Of a stretch of 64,000 bases of DNA, positions 39,479 to 64,000 are shown one piece after another; positions within the stretch are counted from its first letter, which is position 1; each line of letters begins with the position of its first letter. A program made the position numbers and the translations under genes. This DNA comes from Fragilaria crotonensis (lineage: Eukaryota; Bacillariophyta; Fragilariophyceae; Fragilariales; Fragilariaceae), in contig JAKSYS010000123.1 in NCBI GenBank assembly GCA_022925895.1, forward strand, positions 49,466 through 113,465, written 5' to 3'. The notes beneath the pieces were generated by a model that searched no databases, was not told the origin of the DNA, and saw only the letters and a list, made by a program, of their open reading frames with translations.

Positions 39479-39798
39479 ATCAGGGAGTGCAAATCTCTGA
39501 TTTGTACATCTTAATTTACATGACTTTGTAAATATTTCTGTAATGTTTCACCGAATGTTTCTTATATTCATATTTACAAGTTTCTACGTTTTTATTTACA
39601 ATTCAAAATAAATATGTACAAAATGTAGAGAACTATTTGTTATGTCGTACTCAGTTTTATTCATAGCTGATTGAGAAATATTCACAACTTCTTCTTCGGT
39701 TTCAGTGCTGCTACGACCAATTCTGGGGGGTTGCAATCTGTTTCAGTACTGTACTGTGCGTTATTGTTTCTAAAGTTCTACTTCCAGGTATCACGAAC

Positions 39799-40192
39799 CT
39801 ACACGGCTTCTTGAACTCTGTTGACATCATCTTCTTCAGGAGCTGGTGGTTGCAGTTGTTGGTGCTGTGCATGGGCGATCAGGAGCTGCATATTGAATTC
39901 ATTATACACAATTGTCGGTGCTGCGTTGACAACTTCTGCCTCGATGTTTTCCCTTCCTGCATCTCGATTACGATCACCGTATGATTGTATCATTTCCCGA
40001 AGGAACCACTGATCGAACTCTTCGCCCCTTTCCCTTCTGTCGTTATAGACCAATACAGCCAGGTTATTGAAACGCTCCATTCCTTCCCTTGACCAACTTC
40101 GCTTGGTGCCCCTTGTTTTGCCCGTGTACCGTGGGTTAATGACTTCAGGTGCAGGTTCGTCGGCGGGCGGTCCATTTCTGTTAACCATCCAT
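39799..40192 (-). pseudogene. Element 0 fused B-A gene, 3' part
   Basis: Encodes the C-terminal part of protein A (PRYTGKTRGTKRSWSREGMERFN, ..., VYNEFNMQLLIAHA), closely similar to 63310-63600 in element 2. It is separated from its 5' part (50073-51383) by element 1. Joining across the AT duplication reads E-W-T-W-M-V-N-R in frame, so the gene was intact before the insertion. The stop at 39799 lies 318 bp from the terminal repeat, as in the other elements. Confidence 0.85.
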
Positions 40193-40749
40193 CAGAAGGT
40201 GCGTTATGGTCATATGGTCATAATTTGTTATTAATTTTGTTATGAAGTAAACATATTTGTTTTAAAAACATGTACAAATAGTACATATTGAACGTAACTT
40301 TGTGATTACTTCAACAAATATTGCTTCATGCTACAATTGTTGTTTAGTGCAATTTATAATTTGGTTACTGGAAGAAACATTACGTTTTTACTATAACTAT
40401 CTGTCAACAAATTATGTTATTTGCATACCAACCACAATTTTTTACTTGTTTCTACGTAACAATTGTAGCTTTTTTCAGTTGATTAGAAACATATTTTGTC
40501 ATTTGTTCCCCAATTTACGATGTTTTTGTAATATTGTTTGTCACTTTAAACGCAAAAGTACAGAACGTTTTGTTTTTTCCTCGCCCGTTAGTATACTAAT
40601 CTGTGTTTGTTCTTCAACATTGTTTTGTGTATTTGGCCAACATCATCGTCGTTAAAAGACATCTGTTCTTTTTTCGTGAATATTCTTTGGCACTTTTCAC
40701 ACAACTGTGTTGTTTTGTTGTCACTCTTATTCTTGTTGCTAACGACAAG

Positions 40750-43700
40750 ATGTCGTCGTTTGTGCGTTGTGTTGGTTGCACAAAATCTTTCAAGCGGCTT
40801 TCCACTCACCTTGCTCAGAATGCAGTTTGTGCAGCTCATTATTATGGTAGTCATATAAGCACAGCATGTGACAAAGCCGCAACAATTCCAACCATCGCAA
40901 ATGATGGAAGTAGTTTTCAGCAAGAGGTTGCTAACACTCGGTTGAATTCAAGATCATCATCGCGCCGACCTGCTTTGCTTCCAATCAGGGGGAGTGTGAT
41001 TGAAGGACAAGACAACGAGCTTCATATCGGAAATGTGAACGAAGTCGATGACAATTTTGTGGTAGATGATGACGATGACTTTGTCCATTCATTTGAAGAT
41101 AATCATCCCGATGTTCCTAGTGAAGAAGAGGATGGCCAAGCTGATCACAGTGTTTTTGATTTGTATGAGAAACTTTTTAAGCTGCGATCAAACCCCCTTG
41201 GTCTCGAGCGTTTTTCTTTGGAGGAGAAGGTCCAAATTGAACTATTGCAACTCCTAAGGGATCTGAAAGCTCCTCTCAAAGCGTTCACCTTAGTTCTTAA
41301 CTGGGCCGCAAAATCAAACGCGAGTGGTCATGTCTTCAAGGAGGGTTGTCAACCATCTCGTGAGAAGGTGATGAGAAATTTATATGAAAGGTACAACATG
41401 AATGGATTGATCCCGAAAGAGAAACAATTGTACCTTCCTTACTCACAGAGGACGGTGTCAGTTGTGTACTTCGATGCCAGTGAAGTTTTTGCTTCACTAC
41501 TCTCATGTCCCACTCTAAATCAAGATGAAAATTTTTTATTTGATAGTGCAAAGGATCCATTTGTCGCGCCATCGGGAAAAGCATCCCATGTTGGTGACAT
41601 CAACACAGGTCGTGGTTACAGAAAGACATACAAGGCCTTGGTAAAGGATATCGGTGTCGACATACTTCTACCTTGCATTATGGCTATGGATAAGACCCAC
41701 ATTGATATGGCAGGTCGGCTCCAGATGGAGCCAATAACACTCTCCCACGGTCTTTTGAAGCATACTGTGCGTCGCCTTCCAATTGCCATGCGCATCCTTG
41801 GGTACATAAATCATAGCGCACCCGCCCACCTCCCCACCATATCCGAATTGGATATCAACTTCAATGCACCTTCAGGCCTACCACATGGAACTGTGGTTTG
41901 TGACGCCCCACTCAGGCGCATCAAAGATGTGACTTGGCCGACGTATCTCCTGAATGAGCTCCACATACAGATCCAGTTTATTCTTGAGGAATCTGGCTTT
42001 TTGCGATTACAGAGGAAGGGATTCCGATGGAATCTCCACTACAATAGAACAATTCATCCCGTTGTGTTCCGTCTGTACGTGCCCTTCATCATAGGGGACA
42101 CAGAGGGTCATGACCGTCTTTGTGGGCACTACACTGCACGCTTCTCAAAGATACAACAACTTTGTCGCATCTGTGAATGTCCAACATACTTGACTGGTTA
42201 CTCGAAGTCAAAGTTTCCCCATCGTATGCCAAAAGGTATCAATAAACTTGTCAGGAATGGCAACACCATGCAGCTCAAGATGCTCTCGCAGAACTATCTC
42301 AAGAACGGTTTTGATGAAGTCCGGTTTGGTCAACACAATCAGCGAGGTATTTTTGGTGCCTGTCCGGGTGAAATGCTGCACCTGATTTCACTCGGCTGGT
42401 TCAAGTACTGCATCGAGGCCTTCTCGTCCCAAGCCGGTGGTACCAATTCTGTGGCGTTGAAACAGTACGATCGACTCTGTGCAACGTTGGGCAGTAGATT
42501 GTCAAGACAGAGTGACCGCGACATCCCACGCACGAACTTCCCGAAGGGATTCTCCTCCGGATCAAATCTTATGGGACATGAGATGGCGGGGTGTCTCCTG
42601 GTTAAGTTATTTGCACTACATACCACTTATTTCCACAGTATCTTCTCTGTTGGGAACACCAAACGTAAAGCGGCTGCGCCTCCCGAAGAGCAAAGGCTGA
42701 GGAATGAAGCCCATGTTTCAGATTGGATTCTGGTCATCTCGTCCCTCTTAACATGGCACCAATGGATGAAGCAACCGTCCATCGCAAAGAAGCAGGTGAA
42801 GGCTTCACATGTTGCTGTGCAGTGGCTGATGCGCCTAGTGGCCACAGTTGCACCTCGCACCACTGGAATGACAAACAACACGATCAAAAAGCACTTGGTC
42901 TTGCATCTTTGCGAAGACATCCTTGACCATGGTGTTCCCGACAACGTGAACAGTGCATTTGCCGAGTCGGCCCACATTCCCCTCGCAAAGATGACATCAC
43001 GTAACACACAGAAACGTGCCGTTTCCTTCACAAAACAAGCGGCTCATCGTTACGTTGAGAACATTGTTGTATCACTTGCATCTGCAGACGTGGTGAATGA
43101 TCACAAACTGAAGGGCCACAGGTCCACAAGAACCCAATCCATGCCAATGGCAGCACCCAACATCTCAGAAGCGGGTGCGACCGGCAGGATGTCCGGCCGT
43201 AAATTCACCCTTTCATGGTTCAATGGTGATGAATGCGCCACATTTGAGTGGTACCGAAAGGGGCCTCTGATGATCCAGAGAAGTCCCATTTGTCACATGT
43301 AGTCACAGAGTACCTGGCTAATTTCTGCCTGCCGCACATTCCCGACAGCCGGCTTCCATGCTTCACTGAGTTTGTTACCATCAACAATGATCTGTTTCGT
43401 GCCCATCCCTGTTATGACGGCAGACCGTGGAATGATCATGCGATGGTGAAGTGGTTCAAGCTTGATGCTCATCTTCCCGCTCATCCACACATTTGTCGAT
43501 CTGCGTGGCCTTCCAAAAGGAAAATCAATAAGTATTCGTTCAACCGGGCAGAAGGAAATCAGGGCGGGGTTGTATGCGCTTGTCCATTCCTTCGATGCTG
43601 TCGATGAAAAGGAAATGGACAGCGAGAACACCCTGATAGGGCGTTATACTCTGCATCGCCCGTCACCAAGTGAAAGGCCAACATTGTACCTGGTGGACGT

Positions 43701-44010
43701 CGAATCACTCAGGTCGCCAACAGTTGGCATTCCAGATGTCGGATGCGCTTTAGAGAACATACCGAAACACAAACGTCATCATCTCTTCCTGATCCGTCGC
43801 AAAGTTGCTTGGCCCCAGGTCTGGGATTCCATTATCAATAGTTCCTATGATACAGACGACATAGCCTTGGAGAAAGAGTATGAGAACGTAGCCACGATGG
43901 CTAATGGCACAGAAGTCCTAACGGTCAAGACTGCCGAAGAGGTAGCCGCCGACACTGCTGCACGAGATGCTGTTCTTGATACCACAGGTAGAAAGAAAAG
44001 GAAGAAGTAG
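40750..44010 (+). CDS. Transposase-like protein B1 of element 1, two frameshifts
   Basis: The ATG at 40750 was chosen because the frame extends upstream without an ATG. The N-terminus has a zinc-finger-like module (CVGCTKSF..LSTHL...CAAH). The core resembles Plavaka/CACTA-type (Tnp2-like) DDE transposases: IMAMDKTHID (about residue 313), then IGDTEGHDRLCGHY with RICECP (about 449), then CPGEMLHLISLGWFKY (about 540) as candidate D, D and E. After 43265 the frame shifts (expected EKSHLSHVVTEYL) and shifts again near 43480 (expected HTFVDLRGLPKGKS), so the C-terminal 240 residues, with CYDGRPWNDHAMVKW and a Lys-rich end, are read in two further phases. The family assignment is from memory of motif layout. 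Confidence 0.7.
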
Positions 44011-44044
44011 AGACAGCGATCATTTTGACAAGGAAGTACTCGTA

Positions 44045-46524
44045 TTAGTAGTTACTTGTCCCACTGGCACTTCTCCTTTTCTTTGGTATCTTGTACACAC
44101 CGCCGACATCCAAGTCTCCCGCCTGCACCCGGCAAATTACAGGACAATCGGGGTGCACAGCTCTGCGTTTTCGTTCGTCATTGTCAGGTTGAGCACGTCC
44201 ACCCGCTCGTGTTCTCCCATCAGTCGTCAACTGAACATCGACCCCCGACATCACACGATGGTGACAGAGAACAACCGACGACTCGACATCGTCCCCGCTC
44301 GTGACACTCACGTTTGGCTCCGCAGCATCAACTTTATCAACTTGCCGCCCCCGTCCGCTTCTCTTGCGTCCGCTTTTCTTCTTCTTCTTCTTCTTCTTCT
44401 TTCCCTGAGGCAGCACGTCGGAGTCGTCCTTTTCCGAGGGAGGAGTCGGCACACAGTACTTGGCAGCAGACAGCACCCTTCCCGCCTGCACAATTCGTTC
44501 CTTTGCAGCAGTAAACGTTCCGTAGAGATGGTTACGGAAATGCGAATCAACCGCACCACCAACCCTCCCGTTCTCCATCCCATCCGGATGGGAAACAGAT
44601 GTACAATGACGGATCACGCGGCCATCCCAGCTGATGGCCACGCCATGGCCAAGCCTCACCGCCATGCCACGGAACGTGCTCCGCCCATCAGGTTTTGTTC
44701 CATGTATATTTGGAAGGACAAAAAACCAGTTGGCACCACGGCCAGGCACCTCCTCAGTCCACACACTGTAGCCCGGGGACGCGTCATGCACGTCGAAATG
44801 CGACGCGTTCCCGAGGTTGATACTCATGTCGATGGTGTACCCGACCCTTCGGCAACGCTCAACTTTTGATCGAGCCTTCTCATGGACGATTGATTCCTCG
44901 TCATCGAGCTCCACATCGTGCCCATCCATCGCCTCGTCAGCATCCTCGTTATCAGTGAGAGCCTCACCGCCCATTGGCTCAACTGGGAGCATGCCGGAGT
45001 CCCCCTCCACGTCCCTAACAACGGAGTACACCTGTGGGAAGCAGCGACTCCCAAGGCTTGCCAAGTTGACAACTAAATCACGAAGGGCACCCACCGGAAC
45101 CTTCCCGTTTGCAGAGTACGGAGCCGGCGTGCCCACCCCTCCAAGTGGTATTCTTGTTCCGATGGCATGCATCGTCCCAAGATCCTCACATTTATTGCGC
45201 GCATGTCCCTTACCCTCCACCTTCCGAAGCTCCGTGTTGTGTGACGTGATACGCTCAAGCAATCCGATGTGGTCATCGTCAGTGTCGATCTTAGTGACGT
45301 TCCGGATCATAACAACAGACTGGCGACTCCGCATCCCATCACCAACCGTGTCGACGTCAACCATCACATCAACAAAGTGGTTGTCCATGGGATCGATGAT
45401 CCAACAAGAATCAGGCAGCTGGTAGTGAAGATACCCGGCAACATAGTGCCGGCCATCTTTCCTTGCGCTGGAAGAAGAAGCAAGCCGCTGTTGGTACTCG
45501 GCAGCCAGATAGTCACGAGGGCAGGTGCCAAAGTTGCAGCCCTGTAATAAATCAGGCGCCAACTTGGGACCATCTGCATCGTGGCATTGAACAGCCCTGT
45601 AGATGACTCGGTTCTGTTGGGAATGGTGTGTTCTCCCAGTGGAAATCCTCCACGCTGACACGCGGTGATTCTCATCAAGGAAGTGCCAACCAGAACTGAT
45701 ATCATGCTCATCACGATAGACACAATGGCCCGTATGCTCAGTATAAAATCGCTTCACAAAGCTGTCGCTGCCAAACTTGTATGACACCTCACGACCACCA
45801 CACGTCACCTCACGTTGCAGGCGTAGCCAGCTCATGTCATGGGCTATGAATGAGCCCGGCACACCAACATCTCCCCTACGACGCTCCCTATGACAGTAGA
45901 ACACGCCGCACTGGGGTAAGAAAAGGATAGCAGCCCTATAACAATAATCCTTCTCAGGTAGAGCATCATCCGGCTGGTACAATCGAAACGGTCGGACCAC
46001 GTCCGATCAACAACAGGTTGTTTCTTGTGATCAGATGGAGCCCCTGTCACTGCTGCTGATGAAGGCGCCCGGTTCAGAATGACATCCATAATGTAAAATT
46101 CATTAAGGAACTCCGATTCAATCCGCGCCTCGGGGAACATGTCGCCCGCCCGTCGTAGCTGGAACGGCTCGCATTGAAAAGCTTTGGCGATCCAACTCAT
46201 CGGAACGTGGCACAGATTGCTTTGTTCTGATTTTGCATGCTTCCTTTCATCCCTGCTTGCCCGCCGGAACCGTCGCCTGAAAGCACTCCTCTCCTCAGGA
46301 ATAACCGCCATCGACAACAGCCTCATAATCCTCCTATTTGTCGGGAGACTCTCCCTCTCGTTGCGCTTTGCTGGGAGTTGTTTCTTTGCATCCTTCTTCT
46401 CGTCCACAACATGCGATCCTGGCACTCGCGGTGTCTTCCCCAAATTTAGCACCGACGTCTTGCACGGAGAAGTCTTATTGCCCATGCCCGCGACCCTATC
46501 ACCACCGCGTCGATTATGCGACAT
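44045..46524 (-). CDS. Dioxygenase-like protein C1 of element 1, one frameshift
   Basis: Read from the ATG at 46524, with a phase change near 46000 (RTWSDRF against VVRPFRLYQPDDALPEKDYCYRAAIL). About 825 residues. Shared with C2: FYCHRERR, MSWLRLQ, GRHYVAGYLH, LGTMHAIGTRI, then the block SINLGNASHFDVHDAS...NWFFVLPN...AISWDGRVIRHCTS. The HFD triad and a His about 62 residues later fit the HxD...H iron ligands of double-stranded beta-helix 2-oxoglutarate dioxygenases. The C-terminus has a poly-Lys stretch that could act as a nuclear signal. The gene is convergent with B1. The assignment as a dioxygenase is an inference from the motif; substrate unknown. Confidence 0.55.
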
Positions 46525-46559
46525 CGGGCCCTCTTGCTTTCTGGCAAGTAAAGGCCGCA

Positions 46560-47085
46560 CGATGTCAGTTCAGTTCCTCGCAACGACCACCACTGGTGGC
46601 AATGCGAGCGCGTCTTCGACAACTCAATGGCAACTCTCCCTGCTTTCTGGCGGGAATGAGCCTCTGATCGTCGAATTGGCGAGAACGATCCGACAGCAAC
46701 GGTGACAATCGCGATGCAAATGAATGCACGATGTCAGTTCTGTTCCTCGCAACGACCACCACTGGTGGGAATGCGAGCGCGTCTTCGACAACTCAATGGC
46801 AACTCTCCCTGCTTTCTGGCGGGGAATGAGCCTCTGATCGTCGAATTGGCGAGGAGAACGAGGATCCGACAGCAATGGTGACAATCGCGAAGCAAACGAA
46901 TGCACGATGTCAGTTCAGTTCCTCGCAACGACCACCACTGGTGGGAATGCGAGCGCGTCTTCGACAACTCAATGGCAACTCTCCCTGCTTTCTGGCGGGG
47001 AATGAGCCTCTGATCGTCGAATTGGCGAGGAGAACGATGATCCGACAGCAATGGTGACAATCGCGAAGCAAACGAATGCACAATT
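46560..47085. repeat. Triplicated 169-177 bp repeat between C1 and A1
   Basis: Three adjacent near-identical units beginning GATGTCAGTTC at 46561, 46730 and 46906. They lie upstream of C1 and of A1, which are divergent, so they may be the shared regulatory region or binding sites for an element protein. Element 2 has a triplicate at the same place with a different sequence. Confidence 0.9.
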
Positions 47086-47940
47086 GCTTCTGAGAAGCAA
47101 TTGTGCAATTGCTTGTGGTGTCAAGTATTGACAACAGGAACACATAACGCACGAAAAGGGATCAGTTTACTATGCAAAAAAGAGGCGATTCTGCACCTGG
47201 GACTTGAGTACAGGAACTCAAACTACTTAGGAAATGCTTGTATATGTTGTGTATAACCACATGACGTATATAAGTATACAAATATGTAATTTATACTAAA
47301 CTAATTAACTATGTACATGTATGCCATATTGCTGTCATGGGAAATGACTAAAAAATTGTACGCACAGTTTCTACTACATGGTACGTAGCAGTTAGAAATC
47401 AATTTTTTATGATTCTTATATAACTACAATAACTCTCTATGTAAATCTGATTTTTGTCGATACAAACTCTGAAGTAGTATGAACTACTATTAATAGTTGT
47501 GTATACTGAACATAATAATGTATCTAAGTAAAACAAATAGTGGTAAAAATAGACTCTTATATATATATATGCAATGCTACGTGGTTGCGGTACAAACAAT
47601 GAAACGAATGCAGGAATGCGGGAATGTCAACAACAGATACGACTAAACTCAACGTATGACTTACGCAGTAACGGAAAACTCAGCTGTTGAGTACTGACCA
47701 TCAACCTGCATTCAAACACAACACATGATACATCTTACGCATGTATGTTGATTTTGTACTATAAAAAAATATGTTTTAATCATGTGACGGTATATATTAA
47801 ACAAACATGGCGAACTGCTTCGCATTCAAAAATCCCTATCTGATTCAAAACGCATGGTGTAGTATACATGAATCCTACGAATTGTTGCCTTTCTCACACT
47901 TCCTTTTTCACACTTGCTTGTAGTTAAAGATACATGCATC
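47086..47940. other. AT-rich spacer upstream of gene A1
   Basis: No supported gene. The stretch is AT-rich with a short palindrome (GAAGCAATTGTGCAATTGCTT-like arms near 47081-47114) next to the last repeat unit. Promoter elements for A1 should lie here, but I do not recognise any. Confidence 0.4.
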
Positions 47941-49656
47941 ATGGCCAGAGGAGCAGCCAAAGCAGCTTCTTGGACATCACCACGCAAGAAGCAGGCACGC
48001 ACCCGTAAAGGCGGAGCTGCACAACTACAGCAGCATGTAACGAAAGGCGGAGGATCAAAGACTACGAAAACAACAAATAACAAACGAAAGAAGGTAAATG
48101 AAAGTGCTGCTGCTGCAAATCATAAGCGTACAAAAACAACGAATGATCCGGCGGATGGTGACAAGGGCAAACCTGATGGTGACGAATCCGATGCTGTCGA
48201 AAGTGTGACCACCAAGAACAAAAAGAAACGTGTTGCTGGTGCTGGTAAGAAGAGAAAGTCAATTAAACCAAGAAAATCGGTGGTACAGAAGTTGATACTC
48301 GATGACATTGAAAGCACATCCGAATCAGAGGAGTATGTTGACGAGGAGAACGATGACAAGGAGGATGATGAAGAGGAGGTGTATGAGGATGCTGTGCAGG
48401 ACGAATCAAGTGATGACGACGGGGGACAGAAGGAACCCGCCAACAACAACGACGCTGAAAATAAGGAAAAGCATGGCTGGTCGTCAACTTCATCAGATGA
48501 GGATGACAGCAGGGGACGTCGACAGAGATACAATGGGTATCGAAGGGAAATGGAGGACGAGGCAGAAGCCGCAGCAATGAGGGCTGAGGCTCGTCGCAAG
48601 GAGTTGAACCGCAGTACCCAACAAGGTGCAGTGGATCCTCCAAACAATTCAAATCCTAATGTCATGTTGCCGTCACGTCAGATTATTGATGTTGGCATTT
48701 CGGTTCGTGGCTTGTCAAAGGCTGAATCTATTCAGAAGCAAGAGAAGCATGTGGCAGATCGTGTTACTCAATTTGTTAAATCAGATGTATTCCGCCGAAT
48801 CAAGTTCATTAATAACGACGCAATGTTCCAAAGAGCATTCCAGTTGGTGATGAATCATGAAAAAGTGGAGCCTAACAAGCGTGTAAGTTTTCAAATGCTG
48901 TACGAAAGTTGTTTTAATCATGCATTGAATACGAAGAGGAGTTCGTGCGAACAAACAGGTGGGGCACTTGCAAGGAAAGCAATCGCCGAGTTCAAACAAC
49001 GTGGAGAAGAGTTTTACAGTTTTGACGAATTCTGTAAGCTCAGGAGAGCAACAACAGAAAGAGAGAAGAATGCATTCTTCTGGTTCTTTGACACGTTCTT
49101 GGAATGTGTATGCGGGGCAAGGCAGTGGAGAAATGCAAAGAAGACCACGTTGGTGTCAAAAGCCGCAGATGGGCGTGGTGGAAAACTTGTAACTAAAAGT
49201 GATGAAGCGTTTGGTTTGTTGCTCATCGATAATTATATGGAAAAGTGGGTTACCGTTCTGGCAGAGGAGGAAAAGGCACGCGCTAATGAAGTTGCTAACA
49301 ATCATGACGTCGACAATACAGCGAGACAGGTGGGAACCAACGGCAACAGGCAAAAGAAGAAGGCGGCGGCAAAAATCCCAGGAAGGTATACAGCAAAAAA
49401 AAATGGGCACTGCAAGTATGGTGGGTGGAGCCGTGATGGAACTGCACGTTTCAATGAACTATACAATCTTGTTCAAGACGACCGAGCAAGCGCGCAATCG
49501 GAACAAATGGAAAGGGAGTTGATGGCATTTTGCAGGGCTCAGGCGGGAATAGATGACAACAATGCACAACACGAACAGGAGGGTCATGGTAACAACAATG
49601 CGGCGGAAGGAACTGAAGCACTGCCGGTCGAGGCAGCATGGGACTTGGACGACTAA
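47941..49656 (+). CDS. Protein A1 of element 1, unknown function
   Basis: 571 residues from the ATG at 47941 (MARGAAKAAS); the open frame continues upstream without an ATG. The N-terminus is rich in Lys and Arg (likely nuclear), an acidic tract follows (about residues 100-190), then a helical region (ADRVTQFVKSDVFRRIKFIN) and a C-terminal segment (KYGGWSRDGTARFNELYNLVQDDR). That segment is shared with A2 and the element 0 fragment (KRSWS.EG.ERFN). In CACTA elements a second protein (TnpA) binds subterminal repeats. A1 may play that role, but I recognise no domain and this is only inference from position. The frame is intact. Confidence 0.6.
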   Translation: MARGAAKAASWTSPRKKQARTRKGGAAQLQQHVTKGGGSKTTKTTNNKRKKVNESAAAANHKRTKTTNDPADGDKGKPDGDESDAVESVTTKNKKKRVAGAGKKRKSIKPRKSVVQKLILDDIESTSESEEYVDEENDDKEDDEEEVYEDAVQDESSDDDGGQKEPANNNDAENKEKHGWSSTSSDEDDSRGRRQRYNGYRREMEDEAEAAAMRAEARRKELNRSTQQGAVDPPNNSNPNVMLPSRQIIDVGISVRGLSKAESIQKQEKHVADRVTQFVKSDVFRRIKFINNDAMFQRAFQLVMNHEKVEPNKRVSFQMLYESCFNHALNTKRSSCEQTGGALARKAIAEFKQRGEEFYSFDEFCKLRRATTEREKNAFFWFFDTFLECVCGARQWRNAKKTTLVSKAADGRGGKLVTKSDEAFGLLLIDNYMEKWVTVLAEEEKARANEVANNHDVDNTARQVGTNGNRQKKKAAAKIPGRYTAKKNGHCKYGGWSRDGTARFNELYNLVQDDRASAQSEQMERELMAFCRAQAGIDDNNAQHEQEGHGNNNAAEGTEALPVEAAWDLDD

Positions 49657-50072
49657 GCAAATGGACTTGAGAGACTAGTTTAAACATTTCTTCTAGCACT
49701 ACGATGAGCCAATATGCAAAGAAAATAGCTGTATAATATTTGTAGAATGAAATGCTTACAGGATACAACGTCTGGTGAAAAAGCAACATCTGTTTGGTTA
49801 CTGAACAACAAATTAATGAACAAAACTTGCAAGGAGCAACCATAAAACAGTGATCAAGATAAACAAATATAGTTGCTCAAAAGGTCATATCTAGCAAAAT
49901 ATGTTGATTTGTAACATTAGATTGTGATTAAATTGGTGAAAGACAACATTTTATGGTTTTATCAACAAAATTGGTCATAGTAACCATTTATAGTTGAGAT
50001 GTTACAGATCGGAGGTCATTACTCGGTAACTCTTACCAAGTAAAAATAAAGTAAACATTTTGCACCTTCTGA

Positions 50073-53114: not shown

Positions 53115-54346
53115 GGAAAACCTCGGCGTCCCTCTTGTCGAGGGCTCGCGCTGCAACGTCGGTCTCGAACAGGTCCCTCTTCGCCGGTGTTGCGGCGACC
53201 CTGTCGATCGCCAGCCCTGAGTCCACAATGGCCTCCTCCAAATAATCACGCATCGTGATCTCCGCGGTCCCATTTTCCTTGTATGAAATCTTCATCCCGA
53301 GGAAAATGTGTTCCTTACCTCTCGTAACCGTCATTTTTCCGAATCGACTTTCAATCTGCTCGATCACTTCGGTGACGACGTTCGGGTCAACGTGGGAAAT
53401 CTTCATGTCATCTACATACCATGCGATGGTACACTGTTTTCCGTTTATGATCTTGTTTGCGACGCACGGGTCATATGGATTCAGTTCGAATCCAATTTCC
53501 TCGAGGTAGGAGTGGAACATTTGATACCATAACAGAGCCGATTGCACGCATCCGTACAGAGCCTTGATCAATCGTACGTATATGACCTTCGTGCCGTTTT
53601 CAATGGTAACGAAGGCGGTGTATTTGGGGTTCATCTCGCATAAGATATCAACCGAGGCGCCTGTGAACTTCATGATGACGAAGTCCTTCATGTAAGCCTT
53701 GAGGTAGGCGCCGGCGATGTCGGCGGTGCCAACATCGCGACGCTCGTGAGCGTCACAAGCGACCGATATCATGAGGGAGTCTGTGGCAACAGTTGGCGAC
53801 GCGGTCTCTGACTTATCATACAGCGTCCTCTGTCCCCTTCCGTCGGCAACGGTGCGTCCTTTTAACTTTCCGCACCTTTTCTCCTTAATCAAGTTTATGG
53901 CCCTGAGGGCGGCCTTCTTTTGGGCCCTCGTCAACTTGGTGGGGTCCAAAGGCTCGTAGGCGCTAAGGTCCTCGAGTTGGGCGAATTCGGCCATTAAAGC
54001 CTCCATTGCCTTCCTTCCATGTTTTTTGATCCCGGCGTTCGCAGACATTTGCGTCATCGTGTAGGCAAACTCGGTGTCGGTGGCACACTTGTCCATAATG
54101 TAGCGGAAAATGTCAGCGTAAAAAAGCTGGGTGGGTGGAAAATAGGACTTGCTGTTAAACGGCTCGTCCATGGCAGTCCTGAAACGTAGGGCGGCAGTGT
54201 TCACTCGATCTCGCAGACTGTATCGTGCCTGTGGAACCGCTCCTTGGTTCATGCGCGCTCCTTGGTTCGTACGCGCTCCTTGATTCACATCCGCTCCTTG
54301 GTGATGTACGTCAGTGGTATCGGCTTCTATCACGTCTAGTTCGTCC
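53098..54346 (-). pseudogene. Copia reverse transcriptase fragment interrupted by element 2
   Basis: Minus-strand frame with a linker of NQGA repeats, SLRDRVNTAALRFRTAMDEP and the Copia RT core (GTADIAGAYLKAYM, LIKALYGCVQSALLWYQ, AWYVDDMKISH with the catalytic YVDD, GMKISYKENGT). It is truncated at both ends. Its 5' side is cut by the terminal repeat of element 2 (MDELDVIEAD continues beyond 63996 outside the window), and its 3' side breaks in the palindrome at 53082-53114, before the RNase H. The retained core has no stop, so the break is recent. Confidence 0.85.
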
Positions 54347-54865
54347 ATCAGGAAGCCCATATCTGTGGTTTGAACATAAATCTGTGGTCATGCACCAAGA
54401 AAATATGTATTGACCGCATATATCTAACAAAATTTATTCGATTTGAAAATCACTTAGGTTTGTTTAGGTATGTTAACATGATATCTTTGTTTTGTACATG
54501 GTTATATTTACAAAGGTCTTTTTATACTTATTTGTATCTATGATAGAAATATTTTTACAACAATATCCTATTACTGTATGATTCCTCGGAAAGTTTACAT
54601 ACTATCCACTCTTTTGGTCAGATGTTATGTATCTTCTACATCCTTTCCGCACGTTCGTAAGCTTGACGGACGTGCTTCCCTTTTTTCATCGGTTGTTGTT
54701 CATGCTTTTCGTGTATCTCCTACTAGTATGATACAATCTTCGCGCCATATTTTCCAACAGAAAACTTAACTTCATTTTTGGTGTAAACCATCTTACTGAC
54801 TTGGCATCATCACCAGCCACCACTGCCATTAGTAAGCAAGACGTGGAAGTTGATCAGTTTTCATA

Positions 54866-57835
54866 ATGGCACCAAGCAGCACATCATCAGCATCTCAAAG
54901 TGGAGCCTTCACATGTTTCAATGTCAACTGCTATGCTACGTTCAAAACCGAACGAGGTCTTCGTCAACATTTATGGCGAAGTGCTCCATGTCGCGATTAT
55001 ATGTCGGAACCAAGGCCTCTTGCCGCTAGCCTTGACGTAGTTCATGAGAGTACATGGTCCCGGCGCTTGGGATACGGCGTTGAATCTTCACGTCTAAATC
55101 CTTTTATGAGTGCAGATCCTCCATCGTATGAGCCTTACGAAGTTTTTGACTACTCGGCTACTACTTGTAATTTTGACGCAGATGATGGCATTCATGAACA
55201 GGAGGTTGAAATGAACCAGAACTTGTCTACAAGAACAGGCATCGGTGACATTGCTATATCTTGCCCAGTTTTTCATGCCATGATGGAACGCCTTCAAGCG
55301 GGTGATCGCCATGCAATCATGGTATTGCATCATGATGTTGAACATCGAAATATTGTGAATCTCCTCAAGCTTTTGGAGGATGCCCAATGTCCTGACTACA
55401 TGTTGCAGAAGGTACTGCAATGGGCATACAATGCTAAGTTAGAGGGCTTTGATTTCAACCCAAAAGCTACAACACGGAAAGCCAACATCCAGTGGATGTA
55501 CAAAGCTTTGGAACACTCACACAGAGGACTTCCTAAGGTGCTGACAGCGAATCTTGAAGATCACGACAAGGCTCAAGATATTATTTGCTTTGACTTTGTA
55601 CCTGCATTATTGTCAATGCTGCAAGACGAGTCATTGATGGTGATGGAAAATCTTGTCATCAATAAGGAGTATCCAATGTCAATGTACATACCAACTGACA
55701 GCAAAGTTGGCGAGGCAAACAGTGGTTCACGTTATCGAGAATTGTACCAACAACTTGCACAAGGGAAGGATCAGCTGCTTGTACCAATTATAATGTACCT
55801 TGATGGCACCGTCATTGACAGCAAGGGGCATATTGATATCTGTCCTGTGTCATTCACAACATCTCTTTTCACTGAGAAAGTTCGTCGTGATGTAAAAGCA
55901 TGGCGTCTGCTGGGCTATGTTCCAGACCTGAACCGTGGGCGCTCTGCAGCAATGAATAGCTTTGCAAATGCATGTGCTGAAGAGAAAGGTCGCACTACTC
56001 GTAATTTCCATAAGGTCATGGATGTGATGATGGCAGGTTGGGTGAAGTGTCAAGCTGGTTTAGATGATCGTTTAAAACACGTACCACTGAAACTTGGTGA
56101 CAGGTGGTTTGTTGTCGAACTTGTTTGCCCCCTGTTATTTGTCATCAACGATGGCAAACAAGGTGACCAACTTTGTTGCCGAATCAATGGCCATCACAGC
56201 AGTACATTGCGTCACCATCGTTCATGTGATTGCTTGTATGAAGATCTAGATAATCCTGATGTTGAGTGCACATTCCTATCGACTGAGACAATCAACTACG
56301 CATCTCAACATGGCTCACAAGAGGAGCTCCGCCAGCTTTCAATTTACAGATGTGACAATGCCTTCAATCGTGTTCAGATGGGGCAAAACCCCCACGGCAT
56401 CTTCATGTGTGCAGTTATTGATGTGATGCATACAATTCAACATGGCATCATCATGTATGTTCTCGATTGCTTCAAAAAAAGCCTCAGTGTTCAGTCACTG
56501 GCGACGCTTGACAAAATGGCTTTTATATTTGACACAACGTGCTGTCAGAGTATTCGCACCTCTTTCCCCAGAACTGATTTTTCCAGAGGAATAACAAACC
56601 TCACCATGGTGGAATGCTCTGAACAGTCGGGGGCGTTGTTCCTCATTTCTTTCTTCATTATGCAAGCGGAAGGTTGGGAAGTCTTCGATGAGCATTTTCT
56701 TCAATTGGATGCCGTGTTGGGGACTATGGAAAGCCTTTTATGCTTTGAGGCCTGGCTTGATCAGTACACCTTTTGGGATATTGGAGATCCAGACGGAGAG
56801 GCATCACAAGCTGAAGCAGCAATTGCTTCTCTGATGAATCTCATCACCACACATCTTCCGAGACACGCTGGCAATGGATGGAAACTGTCAAAATTTCACG
56901 AGATCAAGCACATCGTACGATTTATTGCTGCGTTTGGAGCACCGCGTGGTTACAATGCCTCCCGTCCTGAGGAACATCACAAGGCACACGCCAAACGTCC
57001 TGGTAGACGTGCACAGAAGAATGTGGACACCATTGACCAGCAGTGTGGCCAAAGAATTGCGGACGCACTCGTGATTGATACTATGCACGCGATGTTCCAA
57101 GAACGACCTGTTTTGAAGACATCATCACAGCATACTAACCGTAGTCAATTACTGGCTGCTGACGATGTCCAAGATCCTCTGACGAGTGAGTCAGGGTCTG
57201 GAACGTCATATTACGTAAGGTCATACATTGACCCTATGGATGATAATCGATTGTGTCGTGATGTAATCTTTGACACTCAGACCAGGGGAGACATCGAACT
57301 GGAAGATAATCTTGCACTGTTCATTTTGCAGACTTACAGTGACTCCGATCTCGACGACAATGGGGTGGGCGGTATCTGGTGCCGCACAGAGTACCATAAG
57401 TACAACATTGAAACAAAGGAGGAGATGGTTTCTGTTCGCTGTCATCCCAACTTCAGGGGAAAGGGGTATTCCTGGTATGATTGGGCTCTCATCCGCTATG
57501 AAGATGATGAGGGAAATGAGATGGAGTACCCATCTCGCATTGTGAGTTGCATACCACGCCACAGTTGCTTTGGTGGAATTGAAACCACCACGTTTGACCT
57601 CATTATTCAATGTTGTGGCAAACCAACTGGGCGTGAGTCCTTCCTGTTCACTGAGTGGACATTCGAGAAGGAGTTTCATGTTGTCTCCTCAGAAGCCATT
57701 GTTGGCTTGTGTTTTGTCCTAAGCAACCCTGACCTCGCTGACTCTGATGTCCTTGTTGTAACAGATAGGGACAAATGGGCATCAATGTTCTACGATTCAG
57801 CAATGGTTGATTACACCATCAATGGTCAAAATTAA
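54866..57835 (+). CDS. Transposase-like protein B2 of element 2, intact
   Basis: 989 residues from the ATG at 54866. The N-terminal zinc-finger-like module is CFNVNCYATFKTERGLRQHLW followed by PC. A conserved helical region follows (VLHHDVEHRNIVNLLKLLED, QCPDYMLQKVLQWAY). The core carries a candidate catalytic set: IIMYLDGTVIDSKGHI (about residue 313), FVINDGKQGDQLCC (about 429) and AVIDVMHTIQHGIIMY (about 519). The motif layout fits Plavaka/CACTA-like DDE transposases and shows about the same spacing as B1, though the sequences are quite diverged. The C-terminal part (GYSWYDWALIRY) matches the WNDHAMVKW segment of B1. With no stops or shifts, this is the best candidate for an active transposase in the window. 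Confidence 0.75.
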   Translation: MAPSSTSSASQSGAFTCFNVNCYATFKTERGLRQHLWRSAPCRDYMSEPRPLAASLDVVHESTWSRRLGYGVESSRLNPFMSADPPSYEPYEVFDYSATTCNFDADDGIHEQEVEMNQNLSTRTGIGDIAISCPVFHAMMERLQAGDRHAIMVLHHDVEHRNIVNLLKLLEDAQCPDYMLQKVLQWAYNAKLEGFDFNPKATTRKANIQWMYKALEHSHRGLPKVLTANLEDHDKAQDIICFDFVPALLSMLQDESLMVMENLVINKEYPMSMYIPTDSKVGEANSGSRYRELYQQLAQGKDQLLVPIIMYLDGTVIDSKGHIDICPVSFTTSLFTEKVRRDVKAWRLLGYVPDLNRGRSAAMNSFANACAEEKGRTTRNFHKVMDVMMAGWVKCQAGLDDRLKHVPLKLGDRWFVVELVCPLLFVINDGKQGDQLCCRINGHHSSTLRHHRSCDCLYEDLDNPDVECTFLSTETINYASQHGSQEELRQLSIYRCDNAFNRVQMGQNPHGIFMCAVIDVMHTIQHGIIMYVLDCFKKSLSVQSLATLDKMAFIFDTTCCQSIRTSFPRTDFSRGITNLTMVECSEQSGALFLISFFIMQAEGWEVFDEHFLQLDAVLGTMESLLCFEAWLDQYTFWDIGDPDGEASQAEAAIASLMNLITTHLPRHAGNGWKLSKFHEIKHIVRFIAAFGAPRGYNASRPEEHHKAHAKRPGRRAQKNVDTIDQQCGQRIADALVIDTMHAMFQERPVLKTSSQHTNRSQLLAADDVQDPLTSESGSGTSYYVRSYIDPMDDNRLCRDVIFDTQTRGDIELEDNLALFILQTYSDSDLDDNGVGGIWCRTEYHKYNIETKEEMVSVRCHPNFRGKGYSWYDWALIRYEDDEGNEMEYPSRIVSCIPRHSCFGGIETTTFDLIIQCCGKPTGRESFLFTEWTFEKEFHVVSSEAIVGLCFVLSNPDLADSDVLVVTDRDKWASMFYDSAMVDYTINGQN

Positions 57836-57847
57836 GTAGAAACAATA

Positions 57848-59698
57848 TTAAACCATCGGTAACTGGGACATTCCATACATGATGATCCGTGTCTTTGGGG
57901 CAAAGAACGTACCATAGATATTTCCACTCCGCGAACCTGTCATGGATGTACCATGCCTGATCAGGCGGCCATCCCATCCAATCAGGACACCATCAGACAA
58001 TTTGATGGCAATTCCGTTGTAGTCCCGATCCGATCCTGGGAATTTCCCCTTCATGTTCGGAAGGACAAAGTACCAATCCTCAGTTGTCCCAGGGTGATCT
58101 TCAGTCCAGATCGTAAACCCCTGACTGGCATCGTTCACATCGTAATGTGTTGAATTTGCCAAATTAATTGACAAGTCCATGCTGTGCGTAACGCGGCACA
58201 TGCCTCCGTCCATGCCACCAACATGCTTCATTTCAGAATCATTTTCCAAGTCCTGCATCACTCTGAGGGCAGCCGGGATAGTCACTGATGCAAGCTTTGC
58301 CGCAGCTTGCACAGCCTTCAACAATACCGGGGCAGCATCCACAGTTGATGATGTCACATATGGCACCTTGTTCCAGCATTTTGTGATGCGGCTTCCAATT
58401 GGATGCATTGATCCGAGGTCTCCATTGCCAGCCCTTGCTCCCGTGCTGCTCTTCTGTTTTCTCACCAAGTTGCAATGCCTGTTGATGTCGGTCAGAAGGT
58501 CCTCACAACCTGATCCAACAACGTTTGGGAGGTACCGGATTTGAACCACAGAACACCGATGGAAAGCAACTTCGCCCGCATTTGCGGGTACAGTGACATC
58601 AACGTGCAAGTCAAGCTCACCATATTTGATTGGATTGATAACAAATGTCGTTAACGGGTCAATGGTCTTGTGCAGAAATCCCGGTGCATAATGGCGACCT
58701 CCACGTTTGGCTGACCTTGATCGCGAGAACGCATCTTGGAATGTCTCAGCTCGAAACTTATGATCAGCACTCAACAACTCATCCTTCTCACCCACAACAT
58801 AGTCAGGAGGAAGTCCAGGTCCTTCCTCATCCATCAGTTGCTTCGTGCAGTGAATAGATCTCACAAGTGATCTTGGCATCACCCCCATGATCGCATTGGG
58901 AATTGGCAAGAGGTTTGTGGCGGAGCGCCGAATAGTCCACTTCCAAATGGAACACTTATCAGCATTCGCAAGGTGTGAAACATAAGATCCATCACCGAAG
59001 AAGTTACCATGAGAATCATGCTGAAGTCGTAACCAGTTTATGTCCATTGGGACATGCGAATTAAGGACCCCAGTCGATCGTGAGCGCCTCTCCCTGTGGC
59101 AATAGAATATGCCAGCTTGGGGAAGGAGGACAATGCATGCACGGTAGAAGTTATCGCTGTTATTCTTCCCTGAAGGGCGAGAAGAAAAAGCATTTTCATC
59201 TCTAACAGCGATTGCCAAATTGACAGCATCAACATCATCAAATAGACAGACATGCACGGGACTGTCACAGGCATGGGCGTCATCTTTCCTTTTCCTTTTC
59301 AAATCCATAGGACCACTTCTCGAGAGAACACAATCCATGACGATCAGGTCGAGATCGGAATGACTTTCCCCATGACTATACATTTCATCAGGATGTTTGC
59401 AGCGCTTGAGCATGACATACTCAGTACCAAACACATGTTTCAGGGACGAGTCAACCCAATTGATGGGAGTCTTGCAAATCTTCTCGTCACAAAATGCCGA
59501 TGGACCTAGAGCTGACGCCGCCGCCACAACTGCAGGTGGTATTGGAACAGACGCGGCGTTGCCCTTCTTCCGCTTTTGCTTCTTCCGTTTTCGGAGAGGA
59601 GGTGGTCGAAAATTGTTGAACATGACCATGAAAGGAGCAACAGACTGCAAAGGCAGACACTTGGCTATTACATTTGCAACTTGAGTGTGACTTGCCAT
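57848..59698 (-). CDS. Dioxygenase-like protein C2 of element 2
   Basis: 616 residues from the ATG at 59698. Lys/Arg-rich stretch near residue 40 (RKRKKQKRKK, nuclear signal). It shares with C1: FYCHRERR, MDINWLRLQHD, GRHYAPGFLH, LGSMHPIGSRI and the block SINLANSTHYDVNDAS...WYFVLPN...IGWDGRLIRHGTS. HYD and the downstream His are conserved where 2-oxoglutarate/Fe(II) enzymes have HxD...H. No other family signature was recognised, and the C-terminus is shorter than that of C1, lacking the poly-Lys end. A possible longer N-terminus lies further upstream in other phases (59800-60245, including a basic frame at 59994-60245), so the real gene may begin there with an intron or a frameshift. The gene is 12 bp from B2, convergent. 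Confidence 0.6.
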   Translation of the reverse strand: MASHTQVANVIAKCLPLQSVAPFMVMFNNFRPPPLRKRKKQKRKKGNAASVPIPPAVVAAASALGPSAFCDEKICKTPINWVDSSLKHVFGTEYVMLKRCKHPDEMYSHGESHSDLDLIVMDCVLSRSGPMDLKRKRKDDAHACDSPVHVCLFDDVDAVNLAIAVRDENAFSSRPSGKNNSDNFYRACIVLLPQAGIFYCHRERRSRSTGVLNSHVPMDINWLRLQHDSHGNFFGDGSYVSHLANADKCSIWKWTIRRSATNLLPIPNAIMGVMPRSLVRSIHCTKQLMDEEGPGLPPDYVVGEKDELLSADHKFRAETFQDAFSRSRSAKRGGRHYAPGFLHKTIDPLTTFVINPIKYGELDLHVDVTVPANAGEVAFHRCSVVQIRYLPNVVGSGCEDLLTDINRHCNLVRKQKSSTGARAGNGDLGSMHPIGSRITKCWNKVPYVTSSTVDAAPVLLKAVQAAAKLASVTIPAALRVMQDLENDSEMKHVGGMDGGMCRVTHSMDLSINLANSTHYDVNDASQGFTIWTEDHPGTTEDWYFVLPNMKGKFPGSDRDYNGIAIKLSDGVLIGWDGRLIRHGTSMTGSRSGNIYGTFFAPKTRIIMYGMSQLPMV

Positions 59699-60474
59699 AG
59701 AAAGTGATGGATGCTCTCAAGCAATCCAATCTCCAAACCTTCGTTTCCTTGATTATCTTCCTCGCAGCCTTGACTTCTTTCCTCGTTCTCCTGTCCCCTG
59801 ATCAGGAAAATTGCTGCCGACAGCAGCATCAGCTTCCATGGTACCGCCAAGTGTGGTAATAGGCACAGACATGGTGTTTTCCGTCAACGGAATGGTCTGT
59901 CGATTGTTCACTCTTGCCAAAATAATGGCACGGGAGAGCTCACCTGGCAGAGTGCGTTGAAATGGTCCATGAGGGCGAGCACGAATTGGGCGTTCACGCC
60001 AATTGTTTTCCGCCTTCCCACTCTTTTTTCTTCTGCCGTGGTTTGGTGCTTTGGGATGAAGATGGCAACGTGGTCACAGCATCATCAACAGCACTAGTCG
60101 ATGAACCAGCGTTCTTCAATCCACCACTCACATTTGCCATCAAGACAGCCTTAGTAGACACAACCTTCAACTCAATCTTCACTTTAACTTTGAGCTCAAC
60201 CATCATATCCTTGTCCTTCCTCAACGAATCAGACCTTCTTGCCAAAGTTGAGGTCTTTCCTTCTTGAATAGCCGAACATGGTAGCAGTTTTGAGAAAACT
60301 CCGCCTCGTCTTCCGACGATGAATCCTCAAACCATTCCTTTGTCAACGTCGAACATGAAGTCGTTGAGCACAAAGTCTCTGCCATCATAGACAACTGGAG
60401 CCAATCAAAGTGAATGGGCCTCACAAAATTTGTCGTCAACGGTGGAGCAAGGAAGCCAACAGCGAGCAACACGC

Positions 60475-61065
60475 GAACACGACCGGTCGTTGTCGTAACC
60501 AACAGCCAGCCAGGAACAACCAAATCGACGTCAGCTGAGCTTTATAGATGTAAACGCAAAGCTGAACGCGAAATTGGAAGCCAGCAATTGGCGTGGATCC
60601 AGACAATGACAGTCTCGCAATATCTGTTATCAGTGGCGGAGCGACGAGAATTCTGCAACGTGACAGCCAACGAAGAACAAATATGCAACGACCTGTCGTC
60701 GTCGTTGTCACCAACAGCCAGCCGTGAACAACCAAATTGACGTCAGCTGAGCTTTATAGATGTAAACGCAAAGCTGAACGCGAAATTGAAGCCAGCAATC
60801 GGCGTGGATCAAGACAATGACAGTCTCGCAATATCTGTTATCAGTGGCGGAGCGATGAGAAACCTGCAACGTCGTGACAGCCAACAATGAACAAATATGC
60901 AACGACCTGTCGTCGTCGTTGTCACCAACAGCCAGCCGTGAACAACCAAATCGACGTCAGCTGAGCTTTATAGATGTAAACGCAAAGCTGAACGCAAAAT
61001 TGGAAGCCAGTGACCGGTGTGGATCAAGACAACGACAGTGTTGCAAAATCTGTTGCTCGTTGATG
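60475..61065. repeat. Triplicated 211-215 bp repeat between C2 and A2
   Basis: Three adjacent units containing CAGCTGAGCTTTATAGATG at 60532, 60743 and 60958. They are partly degenerate. They lie in the interval between the divergent genes C2 and A2, the same place as the triplicate of element 1, but with no obvious sequence similarity to it. Confidence 0.88.
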
Positions 61066-61069
61066 GTGG

Positions 61070-62118
61070 AGCTTCCAAAACATCAATGCGATACGAAAGG
61101 CAATGAGTGTGACAAGGTTGTCGGGGGTCAGGAGTGCCTAACAGTGAGTGTGTTGTAGTTGAGAAAATTTGACAAAAAGAGACAACCGAATCGCCCAATA
61201 CATTCGTTGTAGAAAACATACCAAAAACTTGTGCATCACGTTGCGAGCAGGAATGCATACAAAGCTTCACTATGCTAAGCATAATTGCAAATTGAACATA
61301 TAAGTACACTAATATTTACTGATATGATTCACATGTAGAATGTGACAGTACTTTCGGTGCTTGTTTTTATTGAGAAAAATTTGTCCATCCTGCGAAGTAT
61401 TCAGTACTACTAGGATGTCGTCTTATACCATTGAATCGCCAGTATAGACACTATGAATGTTCATAGCGATACTGCGAGCGGTAAATTGACTCGCTACTTC
61501 GCGTAAACGGCTACTTTGTCTAAGAAAGTACATGTTGGTGAGTGTATGCTACATTAACACCTGTTTAATATACCAAGAATTACATACAATGTATAATGAA
61601 CATTATTAATTCCAAACAACCACATTTTTATTAAATGCATATGATTATATATGCGCATATCAATTCATTTAGCAAGAAATGTATGTTATATATATGAATA
61701 TAAGCATAACATGCAACCACATTTTAATTCAACGCATATGATTATGTATGCGCATATCGATTCATTTAGCGAGAAATGTATGTTATACATACGGATATAT
61801 GTATAATATGCATATTCAAATGACAAAAAACGAAAATTCAAAACATCTACATATTCATGCATATTTAAACTGATCATTTGAAGAAGTATATTGAATGTGA
61901 ATACTTATGTGTAACGTTCAGTGTAAATCATCTTCCCCTAAGGATATGCAGATTTTTGAAACGCATGTGAATAACTTTGTCAAGACTTCGAAATATTGAA
62001 CAAGTCTTGTGCTCGCACGAAAACAAAACAGAACACATGTCAGCCGAGTGATCTTGCCATATGCTGGCTTTTTGTTCTCGCGTTTAAAGAACACACCCAA
62101 AGATCAGGGGTAGTCTCT
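61070..62118. other. AT-rich spacer upstream of gene A2
   Basis: No supported gene. Two related stretches at about 61610-61700 and 61710-61800 (AACCACATTTT..., ATATGATTAT.TATGCGCATAT, GAGAAATGTATGTTAT) form a diverged direct repeat of about 90 bp. Confidence 0.5.
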
Positions 62119-63714
62119 ATGGCAGGAGGTCGTGGTCGAGCAGGACGACGACAACGTGGTGGAGGTGCTGGGAGAAGTGGTCGAGGAGCTAGAGGTGGTC
62201 CTCCTCCGTCCTCCGCCTCCTCCTCCGCCTCCTCCACCTCCTCCACCTGCTCCACCGGATCATGCGGCTGCTGCGGGCAACAGTGTTGAAGATTCTCCAG
62301 CTACACGAACACGACGACAACTGATGCTTGCGCTTCAAGCAGGTTCTAATTCTGCTGATTGTCATGATGGTGGTCGTGAGGGTCGCGGTCGTGCTGCTGA
62401 TGTCACAGAAGATTCTTCAACTAGAAGAAGGACGCGTCAACGACTTGCTGCAGCTTCTCATGTAAGTGCTCCCACTAATGCTCATATGATGCGAAGATTG
62501 TTTGCCGACACAGACGGAAGTGAGGAGGAGGATGATGATGGAGAAGACGACCCTGCTTATGATGAACCTGCTGTTGCAGCTCCCATTCATGCTCCAGCAA
62601 CAGACGGGCGACAAGTTGGTCACGAAGGGGTCATGCAATATGGGAACAGACTGACAAATGTGGGAAAAGATTGGTTGCTTGAGAAGTGTGTGAAAGAGGA
62701 TGTGTTTCCCAAGCAGAAGTTTGCAAATTTGAATGGTGATCTTGACTTCAGCAACAACCGTAATTCCATCTGCAGATTCATGGCGGAAAAATGAAAGTTC
62801 AGGAAGCGGATGTGGAAGGTTGGTGGGAGAGTTCAAGAAAGCTGTCCATAAGAAACTGAAAAACCATAGGAACAATGTGATCAAAACAATAAAAACAAAA
62901 TTCAACGGTGAGATGGTGGCGACTGATTTCTGTGACATCATGCTGGCAATGCACTATTTCTTCTAACACCCTACTCTTCTCTGGCTGATATTACCACAGA
63001 TAATATACTAGCTGTAACAAACCGGGAATTCCGCTTGGAGCATCATGGGAATGAGAAGTCTCCCATCAAGGCCAGCATATGTAGAGTTGTTGGATTGTCT
63101 TGAGGGCAGTGGTTGGACGTAAAGTGTACGTTGATAACAGGATGACTAAACCATTGAGTGAATGGTTTACACTGACAGACGAGGCATTTCTACTGTTGTG
63201 CCTAGAGTCGTATGTACCGAAGTGGAATCGGGAATGGGCTCAAAGTTCTCGTGCTCCGACAGCAGCAGCAGCAGAACGGCAACAAGAAGGAGAGCAAAAA
63301 GAAGGCGACGGTGAAGACGCATTGTACACAGGGAGAAGCCGAGGAACAAAGCGCAGCTGGTCAAAGGATGGATTAGAGCGATTCAATGGGCTTATGGTTG
63401 ATGTTTATCGGGACCGACAGGCAAATGGGGCCAACTTTGACAACATTTTCAGAGAGGAGATGATCAAAAGGTATGGCAAACAAAATGACAGCGCAAATCC
63501 AGCACGAGGGGGAGAAGATGATCAAGCAAATCCTGAAAATCGTGTTGTTGTAGTGTACAGTGACTTCAACATGGAACAGCTTATGGCTCATGCCACAGCT
63601 GCCAGTGCTGTTGGCGCCGGTAGAGAAGCAACAAGAGGAGGGCAGCAAGAACAAGGTAATGATGATGATGATGATGATAGTCATACAGAAGAAGTGAGCA
63701 GAGTAATGGTATGA
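62119..63714 (+). pseudogene. Protein A2 of element 2, several frame changes
   Basis: The ATG at 62119 opens a Gly/Arg-rich start (MAGGRGRAGRRQRGGG). The phase changes at about 62200 in a Pro/Ser codon run, leading to PPPPAPPDHAAAAGNSVEDS and an acidic middle part that ends with RFMAEK at 62794. A helical stretch (FKKAVHKKLKNHRNNVIKTI) follows in another phase, then 63100-63714 carries the conserved C-terminal half (KPLSEWFTLTDEAFLLLCLESY, TGRSRGTKRSWSKDGLERFN, YSDFNMEQLMAHA). By position and sequence it is the homologue of A1 and of the element 0 fragment. It is either intron-containing or broken. Function unknown. Confidence 0.6.
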
Positions 63715-64000
63715 AAATCAACCGTACAATAAATATACCAAACCGTTTCTACACACCTCCCTAAAACTCGCGGAATAAATTTCGCGGAATAAATTGAAAA
63801 TATTAGCTGCGACCAATTTGTCCAAAGTATTTGTACATAAATATCCACAACATTTCTATATAAAGATGTCAATTTTGTAAATTAATACTTATAACTTTCT
63901 AAGTAAAGAGAACAGAATCTGTCTCAAAAACCAAAGAAATAATTAGAATGAAATATAAATAAATATTTAGAAATCACAGAAATGGGCTTCCTGATGTGCC

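Follow-up and report, generated by a model that had tools for sequence, protein, structure and literature searches.

Which kind of transposon has accumulated, one copy inside another, at this locus of the diatom Fragilaria crotonensis, and what might the two genes that accompany its transposase contribute? The window analysed here is a stretch of 64,000 nucleotides (assembly GCA_022925895.1, contig JAKSYS010000123.1, positions 49,466 to 113,465 of the forward strand), in which three elements, E1, E2 and E3, are bounded by terminal inverted repeats, with E2 nested inside E1. The initial annotation described them as elements with CAG ends and a 2-base-pair (bp) AT target duplication, a combination that fitted neither CACTA nor Zisupton and was not recognised as described. 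The window encodes the F. crotonensis protein MHU86_12951 (P0030), with 100% identity over residues 232-731 and 99% over residues 1-234. We conclude that they are very probably cut-and-paste transposons of the PlavakaB type, with a transposase (gene B), a TET/JBP-type dioxygenase (gene C) that would counter silencing, and a third gene (A) that would act as a helper.

Element ends and target duplication

Further copies were searched for in the F. crotonensis assembly (62.1 Mb, 881 contigs). A genome pattern search with the terminal repeats of E1-like families recovered 50 ends, against 0 for the backward control pattern, and the terminal repeats of the E2 family recovered 60 ends, against 1 for the control. 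An end scan recovered left ends at 6 of its 9 loci and right ends at 7 of 13, reading CAT-CAG and CTG-ATG; the other loci of that scan lay on the opposite strand as stored or had diverged, and such minus-strand rows were not used. After ends lacking an opposite-strand partner on the same contig within ~27 kb had been dropped (12/50 E1-like, 38/60 E2 family), we examined 28 fetched pairs together with the three window elements and three further copies of E3.

The same two bases stand immediately outside CATCAG and CTGATG in 30 of the 33 pairs that have at least two bases on both sides (contig C650 offers a single flank base and was not assessable), compared with a mean of 3.3 and a maximum of 10, of 34, under shuffled pairing. 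Agreement over 3 bp outside the ends was seen in 0/33 pairs, and over 8 bp in one of 30, that pair lying within an ATC simple repeat. The duplicated bases are variable (TT, TA, TC, AC, TG, CT, CA, AA, CG, GA and AT). Two E2-family copies, on C474 and C487, have mirror-image flanks and seemingly represent one locus on two contigs, which leaves 29 of 32 independent sites. Three of the 33 pairs count against a uniform duplication, namely those on C526 (AA/TG) and C295 (GG/GC) and E3 of the window (TC/TG). The base beside the duplication is biased, with C at -3 in 17/34 and G at +3 in 16/33, which suggests a weak CNNG target preference.

The nesting of E2 inside E1 provides an empty site. It is present in all five E1-family sister copies examined (C17, C405, C170, C526 and C230; ~8.8 kb each), where each site agrees at 140/140 bases with the sequence predicted from a TC duplication plus an element spanning 40190-50074. 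In each of the five copies, a model with an AT duplication scores 257, compared with 280 for the model with two variable bases. The target duplication is thus 2 variable bp, and the AT belongs to the terminal repeat, CATCAG.

These results bear directly on whether the elements form a new DNA-transposon superfamily defined by CAG ends and a 2-bp duplication specific to AT. AT does flank CAG or CTG at every recovered end, in the loci of the end scan as in the 28 fetched pairs. However, it is as invariant as the terminal repeat itself, while the matching bases beyond it differ among copies; because AT is its own reverse complement, an invariant AT mimicked a duplication. Flank pairs and sister-copy empty sites together led us to reject the AT duplication, and the empty sites refute the new-superfamily reading, which we consider exceedingly improbable. 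The three elements and their inverted repeats stand as first annotated, but alignment of further genome copies at their ends showed that the ends, placed 3 bp too far inward on each side, and the duplication had been misplaced.

With these boundaries, E2 (40190..50074, plus strand; ends CATCAGAAGGTGC) is a complete element of 9885 bp with its TC duplication at 40188-40189 and 50075-50076. E3 (54346..63996, plus strand; 9651 bp; ends CATCAGGAAGCCCAT) shows no duplication between its TC and TG flanks, and its right flank consists of only 4 bases, where the contig stops. Six contigs break 0-5 bases from a CATCAG or CTGATG end (the ends of C30, C594, C43 and C650 and the starts of C110 and C741). 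The assembler seems to have broken at element borders, and the flank mismatch of E3 may be explained in this way. On its left side, E3 ends inside the start of a frame at 52921-54360 that encodes a Copia-type reverse transcriptase (RVT_2, E 5.5e-21), so E3 probably lies within a Copia element or at its border.

E2 and E3 share the gene plan originally proposed, with B on the plus strand, a convergent C on the minus strand and A on the plus strand, as confirmed from the open reading frames (ORFs). Coding starts, taken as the first ATG of B (40750 in E2, 54866 in E3), lie 557 bp and 517 bp from CAG, in agreement with the 500-560 bp first estimated. Of the two elements initially called complete, E2 is so; E3 follows the same plan with gene A split into two reading frames. 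E1 (39478..51880, minus strand; ends CATCAGGGA..; AT/AT duplication), whose B side is the right end and which hosts the E2 insertion, measures 2516 bp once E2 is subtracted, compared with ~8.8 kb for full members of its family (distances between genomic ends). It retains the N-terminus of B joined in frame to part of A, reading into E2 (50019..51458, minus strand); in a search of 6 short pieces, this frame gave E 1.6e-216 to the B profile and E 3.3e-6 to the A profile. Beyond E2, the remaining A of E1 (39481..40189, minus strand) is a 129-residue open piece (A profile E 6.9e-10, 6 short pieces). Given this fusion and its length relative to its family, E1 is a deletion derivative rather than a complete element, and presumably non-autonomous.

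The transposase belongs to the Plavaka family

Gene B of E2 (40750..43302, plus strand) matches the Plavaka family of Pfam (PF18759) with 30.4 bits at a cut-off of 26.3, in the frame read from 40693. Among its 119 homologues, many carry a precomputed PF18759 assignment and some are called Plavaka transposase by JGI. Alignment places its putative catalytic triad at D314, D450 and E739, with C472xxC475 and H715xxxH719 in addition. Gene B of E3 (54866..57835, plus strand) has no Pfam match of its own and is linked to the family by comparison of the E2-type and E3-type profiles, which match over 700 columns with a probability of 100 and E 2.4e-49; D314, D450, E739, H715 and H719 (E2 numbering) are kept in both B families. 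A C(2)C and H(3-4)H signature between the second D and the E marks the CMCT group, which includes Plavaka, in the accessible part of Kojima 2025 (PMC12730594). E2-type B has this signature in full and E3-type B half of it.

Taken together, domain and profile matches identify B as a Plavaka-family DDE transposase, in line with the Plavaka/CACTA-type DDE protein suspected earlier. One point weighs against a simple placement: E3-type B has HxxC in place of CxxC, C472 being replaced by histidine while H(3)H is kept. Judged by their ends, their target duplication and the transposase domain, the elements probably belong to PlavakaB. It had also been anticipated that profile searches might group B with a described family already equipped with both A and C. 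B does match a described family, and in certain fungi this family comes with a TET gene similar to C; gene A is new relative to Kojima 2025.

A predicted TET/JBP-type dioxygenase convergent to the transposase

Gene C lies convergent to B in E3 (57848..59698, minus strand) and E2 (44045..46000, minus strand). A fold model was made for E3 C, and E2 C was placed by alignment with it (36% identity). The model predicts a TET-type double-stranded beta-helix resembling TET2, CMD1, CcTET and NgTET. Of the iron-binding residues of the HxD...H motif, H518 is invariant among 26 aligned proteins, and D520 and H582 are present in at least 90% of them. E3, E2 and the aligned homologues covering the motif read HYD or HFD (HFD...RH in E2), and the HxE of the PE type is absent from all of these. 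Another frame in E2 (45844..46560, minus strand) is probably the N-terminal part of its C, judged from a resemblance by eye to the N-termini of P0040 and P0042. Estimates of the ratio of non-synonymous to synonymous substitution rates (dN/dS) indicate that the C family is under purifying selection.

Several observations weigh against this assignment. No TET/JBP family, nor any other usable Pfam match, was found for C among 26 proteins. The best sequence match among PDB chains reached E 0.39, which is not usable, and E3 C and E2 C gave no usable match in NCBIfam. Without a usable sequence match, C was therefore placed by fold comparison only. The Foldseek alignment of E3 C with CcTET has modest template-modelling scores of 0.28 by query and 0.45 by target, with a root-mean-square deviation of 7.9. 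As to selection, dN/dS between two recent copies is 0.62, and 6 of the 10 C pairs compared are saturated.

Fold comparison also matched FTO, ALKBH3 and AlkB, and FTO outranks NgTET in Foldseek. C could accordingly be read as an AlkB/FTO-type repair dioxygenase or RNA demethylase rather than a TET/JBP enzyme, which we consider quite unlikely. A further reading holds that C produces or preserves a modified base on the DNA of the element, comparable to base J made by JBP or 5gmC made by CMD1, as a self-mark or a guide for the transposase. CMD1 is indeed among the closest folds, and the reaction is not readable from a fold. Yet a Pfam scan of ORFs from E2 and E3 revealed no glycosyltransferase or other partner, and we regard this reading as unlikely. 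The fold model and the HxD...H motif instead favour a TET/JBP-type DNA dioxygenase with predicted catalytic activity.

C is shared with MULE-like elements

To place C in the genome, 84 rows were merged, with pieces of one gene counted as one place, to 63 places, to which C of the window E2 was added (64). The lists of B, merged likewise from 67 and 68 rows, are lower bounds. A listed B piece lies within 6 kb of 25/64 C places, and the two genes are convergent in 24 of these 25; C124 is a 26th place, with an E2-type B evident in its flank. Weighing against a general pairing, 39/64 C places have no B within 6 kb in these lower-bound lists. At six other places of the 64, a different protein is convergent to C within 1.4 kb, compared with a chance expectation of 0.36, and 32/64 places have no transposase assigned from the lists, again lower bounds.

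Two of these six, C63 and C873, were scanned against Pfam and gave weak matches to the MULE domain (E 6e-4 and 4.5e-3; 17.8 and 20.6 bits, short of the cut-off of 27.6); SWIM was likewise matched below its cut-off. MULE elements have long terminal inverted repeats and 8-11 bp duplications. At both loci, C is convergent to the transposase within an element (C873:51912-60789; C63:94247-102276) bounded by inverted repeats starting GGG(G)AATGC, with matches of 64-80 bp. Direct repeats, (C)CATTTTC and (C)GATGGAAT, flank the two elements; their length varies with the exact placement of the ends (7-8 bp for C63, 8-9 bp for C873), and an 8-bp duplication fits both. Like the PlavakaB-type elements, these MULE/MuDR-like elements carry a member of this C family convergent to their transposase, but they differ in the transposase itself, the long inverted repeats and the duplication of ~8 bp. 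No report linking a MULE with a TET/JBP dioxygenase was found within the portion of the open-access literature consulted.

A tree of 13 C proteins groups the copies carried by MULE-like elements with E3 C (98/97). The C proteins accompanying E2-type B and those accompanying E3-type B each straddle a split supported at 100/100, and supported branches force two changes of B type for each. This pattern suggests either that C was exchanged between transposon lineages or that two old paralogues were sorted among transposase types. For the MULE-borne C, transfer is the simpler reading.

Gene A and the tandem arrays

Gene A of E2 (47941..49656, plus strand) encodes a conserved protein whose disordered N-terminus is followed by a helical domain (model residues 269-535). 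In E3 it spans 62132..63714 on the plus strand as two open pieces (62132-62794 and 63100-63714), of which the second matches the A profile with E 1e-13 and the first weakly (E 0.0027, 5 bits). When the best-sharing 7993 candidates were scored, 75 homologues of A were obtained, none named beyond 'hypothetical protein' and none with a Pfam domain. An alignment of 24 sequences contains 62 invariant columns. The model of A is weak (mean predicted local distance difference test score 58), and its Foldseek search against PDB gave no match at E 0.001 or better. The model thus suggests that A is a conserved helical protein, with a fold not shown to be new. In Spm, TnpA regulates the element and binds its ends, and by analogy one might guess at a regulatory or end-binding role for A.

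Both elements contain, between C and A, the tandem repeat first annotated there, with about three units of 176 bp in E2 (46518..47084) and of ~214 bp in E3 (60486..61054). Each of the three E3 units contains a TATA-like CTATAAAG reading in the direction of C; no such motif was found in the E2 array. A similar ACATATAAAGCTCAGC occurs in the repeat consensus of an element on C121, again on the same strand as C. Arrays of the E3/C121 type are possibly promoter arrays. Seven of the eight C-A stretches examined contain an array (E2, E3, C529, C121, C466, C122 and C285), and C405 lacks one, apart from a 66-bp repeat at its margin. The C466, C122 and C285 stretches represent the A side of C, not the B side, and were used for A and arrays only; two of them, C466 and C122, have an array that may extend into the first part of A.

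Relation to known transposons

In the accessible part of Kojima 2025 (PMC12730594), PlavakaB elements have CATCA..TGATG ends and duplications of 2 or 3 bp, and some carry a TET/JBP gene. The TET-bearing Plavaka elements treated there are fungal and of the PE type (HxE), with PlavakaB examples from Agaricus bisporus and Gymnopus confluens. The F. crotonensis elements resemble these in their CATCAG...CTGATG termini, which contain the CATCA..TGATG ends, in the 2-bp duplication, in the Plavaka DDE transposase and in the TET/JBP-fold gene. With ends and duplication corrected, the mismatch with known groups on which the claim of an undescribed combination rested vanishes. They differ from what is described of the fungal elements in their diatom host, in HxD rather than HxE, and in having gene A and, between it and C, a tandem array. 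Relative to Kojima 2025, the diatom host, the HxD-type C, gene A and a C common to MULE-like elements are new; 'diatom', 'stramenopile' and 'algae' are absent from its main text as available to us. Within the portion of the open-access literature consulted, no earlier report of TET-bearing transposons in diatoms was found. Plavaka itself is already known beyond fungi, since the giant repeats of the protist Amoebidium contain a Plavaka transposase (PMC11244446). In Amoebidium the transposase borders clusters that contain tyrosine recombinase genes, and the accessible part of that source mentions no link to TET.

Two other groups share features with the elements. CACTA/EnSpm transposons have CA..TG ends and a CMCT-type motif order, but they make 3-bp duplications and have CAC ends, whereas the diatom elements duplicate 2 bp and end in CATCAG; membership was rejected as neither a 3-bp duplication nor CAC..GTG ends were found. 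Some Zisupton/Dileera (KDZ) elements carry TET/JBP genes, but their 8-bp duplications led us to reject this group by duplication length.

Two long frames of the window, at 6854-8977 and 12344-15748, lie outside the elements. One matches both reprolysin-like metallopeptidase models and a RAP domain. The other matches mTERF, FAST_1 and TFB6, although none of its individual stretches exceeds the threshold, and is probably repetitive.

A possible counter-defence against methylation

The ends, the 2-bp duplication, the empty site, the transposase family, the predicted fold of C and the selection on C were computed; from these we infer excision, the oxidation reaction, its substrate, an anti-silencing role and the role of A. 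In the proposed mechanism, B would recognise the CATCAG...CTGATG ends, and staggered cuts at insertion would duplicate 2 bp of the target. C, as modelled, would most likely oxidise 5-methylcytosine, or another methylated base, on element DNA, and this oxidation would counter silencing by host DNA methylation. A may serve as a DNA-binding or regulatory helper. In the host assembly, 13 pieces on 9 contigs exceed the cut-off for C5-DNA methylases (PF00145), some of which could be foreign. The accessible part of Kojima 2025 (PMC12730594) proposes the same demethylating-transposon role for fungi.

A broader reading, to which we give an even chance, is that the diatom HxD-type TET/JBP gene is, independently of fungi, a mobile anti-silencing cassette, placed in tail-to-tail orientation beside the transposase, and that it has passed among deep Plavaka B lineages as well as between two or more superfamilies, Plavaka and MULE-like among them. 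Since diatoms can be cultured, the anti-silencing idea is testable. If the broader reading is true, transposons outside fungi would have a common counter-defence against cytosine methylation. That TET genes and transposons are allied in a diatom too, with another type of TET and alongside two kinds of transposase, suggests that methylation-based silencing has been answered repeatedly by the capture of a demethylating enzyme.
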